A stretch of DNA of 39,150 nucleotides from Rhizobium sp. Q54 (lineage in GTDB: Bacteria; Pseudomonadota; Alphaproteobacteria; UBA2966; CAIVPW01): positions 1-39,150 of the forward strand of contig CAMDCA010000018.1 in assembly GCA_945889645.1 (NCBI GenBank), read 5' to 3'. Below, piece after piece: positions 26,241 through 28,260 of the stretch. Position 1 is the stretch's first letter; every line of letters starts with the position of its first letter. The translations under genes were made by a program, and so were the position numbers. The notes under the pieces were generated by a model, which saw nothing but the letters and a program-made list of their open reading frames with translations, was not told where the DNA came from and made no database searches.

Positions 26241-26444
26241 CTAGTGAACCGACGCGGGCTCGAGCTCGTGCTGGCGCACGGCGGCGAATGCGACTTCGCG
26301 CGTCGGCGCGATGGCAAGCTGGGTGCCGTCGGCCAGATAGATTCCGTATGCCTTCACGCCTTCGATGGTGACGGACTTGATGTAAGCGACGCTCGGGTCG
26401 ATCAGCGGCGGAAGGCCCGCCGCACCGAGTTCAATGCGTTCCAT
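26241..26444 (-). CDS. DUF1150 family protein
   Basis: The 67-residue protein matches the alphaproteobacterial DUF1150 family: LPPLIDPSVAYIKSVTIEGVK, then YGIYLADGTQLAIAPTREVAFAAVRQHELEPASVH. The function is unknown. ATG 26444-26442, with AGGAG eight bases upstream, is preferred over an in-frame GTG at 26453 that lacks room for a ribosome site. It starts 20 bases after the hsp20 stop, and this pairing is common, which suggests a stress-related role. Confidence 0.85.
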   Translation of the reverse strand: MERIELGAAGLPPLIDPSVAYIKSVTIEGVKAYGIYLADGTQLAIAPTREVAFAAVRQHELEPASVH

Positions 26445-26464
26445 GGGTACCACTCCTGCCGGCG

Positions 26465-26944
26465 CTAGCCGGTCACCTTGATGCGCGGTCCAACGCCGCC
26501 AAGGGCGCTAGAGCCAAGACCGCTACTCGTCTTGGGGGGCGCCTTGATCTCGATCTTGCGGCTCACTTGTTCCGCTGTCGGCCGTTCGAGGTCGATGCTG
26601 AGGAGGCCGTTGTCGAGTCCGGCTCCGACGACTTCGATCCCGTCTGCCAGCACAAAGGCGCGCTGGAACTGCCGCGCAGCGATGCCACGATGCAGGAACA
26701 CGCGATTTTGGTCGTCGTGCTCCCCGCGATGCTTGCCGCGAATAACGAGTTGGTTCTCTTCCACCGCCACATCAAGGTCGTCCTTGGTGAAGCCGGCCAC
26801 CGCGATGGTGATGCGGATGCCGTTGTCACCAAGTTGCTCGATGTTGTACGGCGGATACCCATCCCCCGCCGATTTGGCAATGCGGTTCAAGGTACGCTCG
26901 AACTGCTCGAACCCGAGCAGAAAGGGACTTTCGAACAGAGTCAT
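26465..26944 (-). CDS. Hsp20/IbpA-type small heat-shock protein
   Basis: The 159-residue ATP-independent holdase chaperone starts MTLFESPFLLGFEQFERTLNRIAKSAGDGYPPYNIEQLG, typical of the alphaproteobacterial IbpA-like class. The alpha-crystallin domain (about 35-125) includes IRITIAVAGFTKDDLDVAVEENQLVIRGKH, VFLHRGIAARQFQRAFVLADGIEV and GLLSIDLERP. The C-terminal IKV of GPRIKVTG is the I-x-I/V motif for oligomer assembly. ATG 26944-26942 has GAGGAG four bases upstream. A ROSE-like structured leader precedes it. Confidence 0.95.
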   Translation of the reverse strand: MTLFESPFLLGFEQFERTLNRIAKSAGDGYPPYNIEQLGDNGIRITIAVAGFTKDDLDVAVEENQLVIRGKHRGEHDDQNRVFLHRGIAARQFQRAFVLADGIEVVGAGLDNGLLSIDLERPTAEQVSRKIEIKAPPKTSSGLGSSALGGVGPRIKVTG

Positions 26945-26998
26945 GGTCTCCTCGTCATGAGCGAGGGCGAGGGAAGACCCAAATTGGCGTCTTCCCTC
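26945..26998 (-). promoter_or_regulatory. ROSE-like RNA thermometer in the hsp20 leader
   Basis: On the minus strand the leader forms a strong hairpin with 10-base arms GAGGGAAGAC/GTCTTCCCTC (26998-26969), extended inside by CCAA/TTGG. A short weak hairpin CCTCG-N7-CGAGG (26966-26950) follows and covers the Shine-Dalgarno sequence. The segment UCGCU (26964-26960) opposite AGGA (26952-26949) matches the U(U/C)GCU/AGGA pairing of ROSE thermometers, which control small heat-shock genes in alphaproteobacteria. The fold was judged by eye. Confidence 0.6.
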
Positions 26999-27053
26999 AG
27001 CCACCTGGCACCCAGCGCCTAGTTGCACGCCGGGTACCGCAGACCATCATGTG

Positions 27054-27078: not shown

Positions 27079-28260
27079 TCAGCGCTTGGCGCGCCGCGCG
27101 GCCTTCTTGGGGGCCTTGCGGGCCGCCTTGATGACCTTGCGAGCCTTGCCTTTCGCAGCAGCCGCCTTGGGCTTGGACGCCTTGATTGCTGCGGCTTTGC
27201 GCTTCGCCGGCCGCTTCAACAGCCGTTTGGCTGGTTTGGCGACCTTGGCAGCCTTGGCCGGCTTGGGAGAGGCCGCCTTGGCCTTTGGCGCCTTCTTGGC
27301 CTTTGGCGCCTTCTTCGGCGTTACCGCCTTCGGGGCGGCACGCTTCGGGCCAGGCTGGTCGGCCAATCCCGCCCACAGCTGCTTCAGGCCGGTGCGACCT
27401 TCTTCGTGGCCCTCGGCGATCAGCGGCCGGATGTTGTTCGGCAGGGCGAAGAACGCCGCGTGCACTTCCGGGTTGTAGTGGCGCGTCTCGATGCCGCTCG
27501 CTGTCAGGCGGCGGCGGATGGTCGCGCCCGGCACGTTGGGCAGGTCGAGCGACTGGCTGGCCCAGCCGAACGCCATGTGGCCGCCGACGTAGGCCGGGAT
27601 CGGCGACAGGTACGCGCCCGCCTTCTTGAACACCTGCAGGCGGTGGTGGTGCGCCTCGCGCAACTCGTCGGGCTGGTAGTAGGACACGCCGTTCTGGGTG
27701 ACCATCAGGCCGCCCTTCTTCAGCACGCGCAGGCAGTTGCGGAAGAACGGCGCTTGGAACAGCACGATGCCGGGCCCTTGCGGGTCAGTCGAGTCGACGA
27801 GGATGACGTCGAAGCGCTTGTCGGTCTCGGCCACGTACGCGGCGCCGTCGCCGGGCAGGTTGACGGTGCGCGGATCCTCAAAGGCGCCGGCGTGATGCAG
27901 CGGCAGATGCGCGCGGCAGATGTCGATCAGCTCGCCGTCGATATCGACGATGACGACTTCCTTCACCGGGTGCCTCAGCACTTCGCGCAGGATTCCGCCG
28001 TCGGCGCCGCCGACGATCAGCACGCTCTCGACGCGGCCGTGGGCGAACATGGCCGGGTGGGTCATGCTCTCGTGGTAGTAGAACTCGTCGCCTTCGGTGG
28101 TCTGCACCACGCCGTCCAGGCACAGCACGCGCCCCAGGCGTTCGTTGCTGATGATCTCGACCGACTGAAACTTGGTCTGGCCGCGATAGAGCACGCCGTC
28201 AACGCGGATGCCTTGGCGGTAAAAGGGATACAGCGTCTCGTCGAACCAAGTGTCAGCCAT
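27079..28260 (-). CDS. speE: spermidine synthase with histone-H1-like basic tail
   Basis: The first 300 or so residues are a complete spermidine synthase, which transfers aminopropyl from decarboxylated SAM to putrescine. Landmarks are the N-terminal beta domain, GDEFYYHESMTHPAM, the cofactor site VLIVGGADGGILREVLRHP (84-89 core), IVDIDGELID, DVILVDSTDPQGPG (catalytic Asp region 156-160) and NGVSYYQPDEL. From about residue 302 to 393 the protein is a run of Lys, Ala and Pro (PKKAPKAKKAPKAKAASPKP and similar), like histone H1 or AlgP. This tail is not part of normal SpeE. The ATG is at 28260. Confidence 0.93.
   Translation of the reverse strand: MADTWFDETLYPFYRQGIRVDGVLYRGQTKFQSVEIISNERLGRVLCLDGVVQTTEGDEFYYHESMTHPAMFAHGRVESVLIVGGADGGILREVLRHPVKEVVIVDIDGELIDICRAHLPLHHAGAFEDPRTVNLPGDGAAYVAETDKRFDVILVDSTDPQGPGIVLFQAPFFRNCLRVLKKGGLMVTQNGVSYYQPDELREAHHHRLQVFKKAGAYLSPIPAYVGGHMAFGWASQSLDLPNVPGATIRRRLTASGIETRHYNPEVHAAFFALPNNIRPLIAEGHEEGRTGLKQLWAGLADQPGPKRAAPKAVTPKKAPKAKKAPKAKAASPKPAKAAKVAKPAKRLLKRPAKRKAAAIKASKPKAAAAKGKARKVIKAARKAPKKAARRAKR

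Follow-up and report, generated by a model that had tools for sequence, protein, structure and literature searches.

What might a long, lysine-rich tail be doing at the end of a spermidine synthase (SpeE)? The question is posed by a minus-strand open reading frame (ORF), 28260..27079, within the 39,150 nucleotides of contig CAMDCA010000018.1 (Rhizobium sp. Q54) that were analysed here and that we refer to as the window. An earlier note on this DNA had read the frame as a complete SpeE continued by an H1/AlgP-like polycation of Lys, Ala, Pro and Arg (K/A/P/R), and had proposed that the tail keeps the enzyme on nucleic acid, the chief binding partner of spermidine, where the product would be released. 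In what follows G000 is the genome of the window and G000 to G007 are the eight genomes of its family (f1).

Domain layout and predicted structure

The ORF has 393 codons and runs uninterrupted from ATG to TGA. It divides into three parts:

27415..28260, minus strand: catalytic part of speE (tetramerisation domain and aminopropyltransferase fold), residues 1-282, from Pfam and NCBIfam matches
27352..27414, minus strand: linker, residues 283-303, low-confidence, in which a short helix is predicted at 292-300
27079..27351, minus strand: K/A/P/R tail and stop codon, residues 304-393, from composition and pLDDT

The Pfam domains Spermine_synt_N (residues 5-56, 53.5 bits) and Spermine_synth (residues 59-237, 167 bits) both match above their curated cut-offs, and the NCBIfam model NF002010 covers residues 2-282, scoring 319 bits where the cut-off is 260. 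The best solved relative, by sequence and by fold, is the SpeE of E. coli (3o4f), and with this enzyme and NF002010 the protein shares the catalytic and tetramerisation parts, the active-site residues and the predicted fold. It differs from E. coli SpeE in having about 110 extra residues at the C-terminus, and in that its genome has no recognisable SpeD. In the AlphaFold model the pLDDT is mostly above 90 in the core and about 40 in the tail, with no secondary structure predicted beyond residue 300. The 90 residues from 304 to 393 include 37 Lys or Arg and no Asp or Glu, and 87% of them are Lys, Ala, Pro or Arg. The tail is thus predicted to be disordered, and the domain matches, composition and disorder prediction together bear out the earlier description of the protein. 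That this is a SpeE with a long basic tail is confirmed.

The tail codons look coding, since they retain GC-rich third positions (GC3 of 0.82, compared with 0.91 in the core). Along the tails Ala, Lys and Pro codons are interspersed and do not follow one repeated unit, while an 18-nucleotide unit is present in the tail DNA in 2.2 copies with no mismatch (27277-27315).

Such tails are rare, and this one is more than a chance occurrence. The speE ORF is the sole one in the window to pass our tail filter and, with a looser 25-residue filter, the sole one among the 424 ORFs called over 439 kb of the window genome. With a 40-residue filter no ORF was picked up in 400-kb samples of G000 (0/373), G004 (0/375) and G010 (0/308). 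Queries with the tail sequences themselves against the same genome or genus are nearly blind, because composition correction masks sequences of this kind; with the G001 query the tail of G000 went undetected.

The earlier note would have given up its reading had a frameshift removed the normal stop. This is excluded: counted from position 276, separately assembled G001, G002 and G004 carry in-frame basic tails of 92-98 residues, compared with 117 in the window protein, and short ones are found in G003 and G007. The synteny around speE is also intact, which argues against an assembly artefact. There is next to no chance that the sequence past residue 300 arose from either kind of error.

Distribution of the tail

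A survey of SpeE homologues of the kind that the earlier note had called for was carried out. SpeE was present in 44 of the 96 relatives searched, among them seven of the eight family genomes, none being found in G005. The comparison comprises 52 rows, deriving from 61 loci after removal of eight duplicates and one fragment; for one sequence set 15 of the 23 listed were used, L042 being left out on account of a stop and seven more also being left out, with ends trimmed by one codon. Long in-frame tails are found in four of the five genomes of the genus (G000, G001, G002 and G004). The fifth, G003, has a short basic end of about 12 residues, APAPRRAAKRKA, and there is a short basic end in G007 of the sister genus as well, KPKARAKAAKPKARRSR. 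Family member G006 has no basic tail, nor has any of the 45 SpeE rows from outside the family. One of these, L029, has a C-terminal extension of 50 residues, the composition of which is different from that of the K/A/P tails. The linker stretch 289-300 (RTGL...) can be aligned among the long-tailed members of the genus only.

In a tree of the SpeE core the seven family members group together with support of 100/99, in the order G006, G007, G003, G000 and then G002, G001 and G004. This order matches a series from no tail through a short to a long one, so that on the tree the tail lengthens stepwise within a single clade. The titles of the matching contig records refer to lake and other open-water metagenomes; the bearers of the tail are uncultured bacteria, probably of fresh water.

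As far as the titles and abstract openings of the open-licence literature go, we recognised no SpeE with a lysine-rich tail, in line with the earlier statement that none of this kind had been described, and no SpeE retained without SpeD.

Selection on the core and the tail

Between G001 and G004 the SpeE core has a dN of 0.016 and a dS of 0.25, and the tail 0.07 and 0.64. Between G001 and G002 the values are 0.064 and 0.39 for the core and 0.40 and 1.37 for the tail, the tail dN amounting to about 1 when it is set against the core dS. In more distant pairs the identity falls to 39-59% in the tail as compared with 87-90% in the core. The core is under purifying selection, and so the gene does something.

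For the tail, neutral drift was simulated by mutating the sequence to the divergence of G001 and G002 while rejecting stop codons. Over 1000 runs the median outcome was 4 Asp or Glu and 18 Lys or Arg, and only 0.7% of runs ended with no acidic residue. All four of the real long tails have no Asp or Glu and 25-37 Lys or Arg. The charge is therefore held above what neutral drift would give and the tail seems to be kept by selection, though the simulation is support rather than proof as repeat expansion could restore the composition. It is rather unlikely that the tail is instead near-neutral, having grown by expansion of GCC- and AAG-type codon repeats in a GC-rich genome and been accepted by a tolerant, disordered C-terminus. 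Such an origin would fit with the local tandem duplication of the 18-nucleotide unit, with the variation in tail length and sequence between species and with the finding that the tails of different genes of G000 have only short DNA matches in common, as would be expected of independent origins. On the other hand, the mixture of Ala, Lys and Pro codons does not reduce to a single repeated unit, the lack of acidic residues and the high content of Lys and Arg lie beyond the neutral simulation, and very few of the sampled ORFs have gained such a tail.

The missing partner of SpeE

SpeD is the AdoMet decarboxylase that is the source of dcAdoMet, the aminopropyl donor for SpeE. The SpeD profile PF02675 found no match in any of the eight family genomes, which are 79-98% complete. 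Overall it matched 34 of 96 genomes, and the control was positive in 8 of 14. Outside the family 34 genomes have a SpeE at an E-value of 1e-20 or better, and SpeD was detected in 33 of these; in the only exception, G039, the SpeE is cut by the end of the contig. The class II decarboxylase profile PF01536 was likewise without a match in the eight genomes, though here the control was silent too. The alternative decarboxylase of the carboxyspermidine route, nspC, was found in none of the eight. Among proteins matching PF02784, LysA alone was found in G000, and several relatives have a second copy; that of G004 (L112) has lysine/ornithine decarboxylases as its nearest relatives of solved structure.

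The order mates G012 and G013 have the locus speD-speE-hsp20-DUF1150, facing ptsN. In the family speE-hsp20-DUF1150 and ptsN are kept and speD is absent. In the window the genes next to speE are:

26465..27028, minus strand: gene adjoining speE, which we take to encode an HSP20-like small heat-shock protein, the start of the ORF being uncertain; a neighbour of speE in 7/7 family loci and in G012 and G013
26241..26453, minus strand: small gene, presumably DUF1150-like, syntenic with speE-hsp20

Given that the family is one clade, the absence of SpeD is best read as one loss, and in the order of the core tree this loss precedes the growth of the tail, which leaves room for a SpeE that has been repurposed. 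The absence lowers the case for the protein making spermidine, not for its being a SpeE homologue. In a study on the subject, SpeE is described as the obligatory partner of SpeD and SpeD without SpeE is treated as anomalous, such cases having led to new decarboxylases (PMC10407285).

Active-site residues

The residues expected of a SpeE for binding the donor and the amine are present. Gln53, Asp58, Tyr62, Glu64, Asp87, Asp108, Asp138, Asp156, Asp159, Gln189 and Tyr224 are conserved in all seven family proteins; most of these sites are invariant or almost so among SpeE. There are departures from the usual residues at G86A (7/7), P70A/G (7/7), M65S (5/7) and P193S/Y (5/7), and sites 65, 70 and 193 are near-invariant in other SpeE. 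G86A was considered as a marker of the SpeD-less clade and rejected, as L018 of G009 has the same change with speD next door.

Putrescine N-methyltransferase, a descendant of SpeE with a changed donor, provides a precedent for a change of function: replacement of one Asp in a plant SpeE is reported to give putrescine methyltransferase activity (PMC3725402). In the family this residue, which maps to Asp87 by the GGxDGG motif, is kept in 7/7 and the window SpeE thus differs from the methyltransferase; a switch of that kind is unsupported.

A broader form of repurposing, in which SpeE after the loss of SpeD would bind or modify another substrate (a polyamine, nucleic acid or a ribosomal target) with the tail taking it there, strikes us as quite unlikely. 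It draws on the loss of SpeD from all eight genomes, at a locus where G012 and G013 retain the gene, on the purifying selection still acting on the core (dN of 0.016 against dS of 0.25 for G001 and G004), on the changes at near-invariant sites 65, 70 and 193 and on the tree order, which places the loss before the growth of the tail. Set against this are the conserved acidic and aromatic sites (Tyr62, Glu64, Asp87, Asp108, Asp138, Asp156, Asp159 and Tyr224, all 7/7), the retention of the Asp of the methyltransferase switch and the G86A change of L018, with speD adjacent, which deprives that substitution of diagnostic value. More specifically, and as something of a long shot, the SpeD-less SpeE might have become a protein tethered to nucleic acid or ribosomes: an enzyme that acts on RNA or ribosomal targets by way of a novel donor or acceptor, or else a sensor of polyamines or AdoMet derivatives. 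The H1-like tail would have brought it there, next to the similarly tailed YbeY described below.

Similar tails on other proteins

A KKA...KKA codon pattern performed better than the tail-sequence queries and matched six of the eight family genomes, though its hits include out-of-frame matches, it recovers only part of the tails and it gave no hit in G002 and G003 despite the YbeY tails there. YbeY, an endoribonuclease, has a K/A/P-rich C-terminal end in all eight family genomes, 32-181 residues from the DPY motif (counted inside the family only). The proteins located, those other than YbeY through in-frame hits of the codon pattern, are:

L219 (G000:C4), L218 and L220-L225: YbeY loci, each with a K/A/P-rich C-terminal tail
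L191:10-1890, plus strand: phosphoglycerate kinase (PGK) of G007, with a K/A/P-rich tail of more than 200 residues
L192:1042-2421, plus strand: AHSA1-domain protein of G005, continued by K/A/P repeats over about 300 residues
L194:1497-1907, minus strand: free-standing small H1-like protein of G000, rich in Lys, Arg, Thr and Ala
L216:1159-1545, plus strand: free-standing small H1-like protein of G004, rich in Lys, Arg, Thr and Ala, with a weak HC2 match
L210:1348-1944, plus strand: glyoxalase-like protein of G004, in which the K/A/P-rich stretch is N-terminal, not C-terminal

In-frame hits also revealed K/A/P-rich ends on ribosomal protein L21 (G004 and G006), a YCII-domain protein (G001) and topoisomerase I (TopA; G007). 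The contig of locus L199 (G000:C49) is 99.7% identical to G004 over 1942 nucleotides, compared with 73-84% at other loci; it is probably misbinned, and the L21 tail that it carries was dropped as one of G000's own. Copying of the SpeE tail from another gene was also considered, but its DNA has only short, low-complexity matches to the YbeY, L21 and H1-like tails and no clear donor emerged. Apparently, other proteins of the lineage have gained K/A/P tails independently.

These findings bear on the proposal that an ordinary spermidine synthase is tethered to nucleic acid and delivers spermidine there, to its chief binding partner. The intact SpeE signature and the H1-like tail speak for it. The usual source of the donor is missing, however, with SpeD and nspC each found in 0/8 family genomes, and delivery of spermidine would leave the tails of YbeY, PGK and other proteins unrelated to polyamines unaccounted for; a free small molecule would, moreover, be expected to diffuse away fast, making a local effect hard to obtain. 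The proposal therefore appears highly improbable, and of the earlier interpretation it is the SpeE with a disordered H1/AlgP-like polycation that stands and not the purpose of spermidine delivery.

Discussion

The gene is a vertically inherited speE whose product has acquired a polycationic C-terminus, predicted to be disordered, in a single alphaproteobacterial clade. By analogy with described tails, we suggest that this end would most likely act as a modular electrostatic anchor holding the enzyme loosely on polyanions such as RNA (ribosomal or other), the nucleoid or polyphosphate. Tailing of unrelated proteins would then be a habit of the whole family, of which the SpeE tail is an instance, rather than a device specific to polyamines. 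On balance we find this reading narrowly probable; the binding of polyanions by the tail, and a benefit from it, are what we infer. It is consistent with the composition and predicted disorder, the order of the tree, the charge above simulation, the tailed YbeY, PGK, L21, AHSA1, YCII and TopA proteins and the free-standing H1-like proteins. Against it, such tails are rare, the habit extending to a handful of proteins per genome, the tail sequence turns over fast and G003 has only its basic stretch of about 12 residues, so that not every member of the genus requires a long tail.

In Pseudomonas, AlgP and PhaF have K/P/A domains that are the nearest described analogues of the SpeE tail. Both are reported to bind DNA, and such domains also serve in granule placement, that of AlgP being needed for the spacing of polyphosphate granules (PMC9239181). 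The likeness lies in a long C-terminus, disordered, acid-free and rich in Lys, Ala and Pro, that is joined to an unrelated N-terminal domain (PMC9239181). AlgP and PhaF have tandem KPAA repeats, whereas the SpeE tail has no KPAA and an irregular order of Lys, Ala and Pro; the N-terminal part is here an enzyme, and binding of DNA or granules by the SpeE tail is putative. Chlamydial HC2 and bacterial H1-like proteins (PF07382) have a lysine-rich composition in common with the tail. The HC2 profile matches the YbeY tails and the free-standing protein of the same genus weakly, below the cut-off, and gave no match to the window SpeE at an E-value of 0.01.

What we describe is thus a known type of tail on an enzyme for which we found no such description in the open-licence literature, in a SpeD-less lineage that tails several of its proteins, and the tail is apparently selected. 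A clade in which SpeE is under selection and SpeD is absent is the mirror image of the cases of SpeD without SpeE (PMC10407285). Within a single clade of the family, a soluble metabolic enzyme has received a modular polycation in steps, and the natural series of no tail, about 12-17 basic residues and 67-90 residues is usable for tests of what the tail does.
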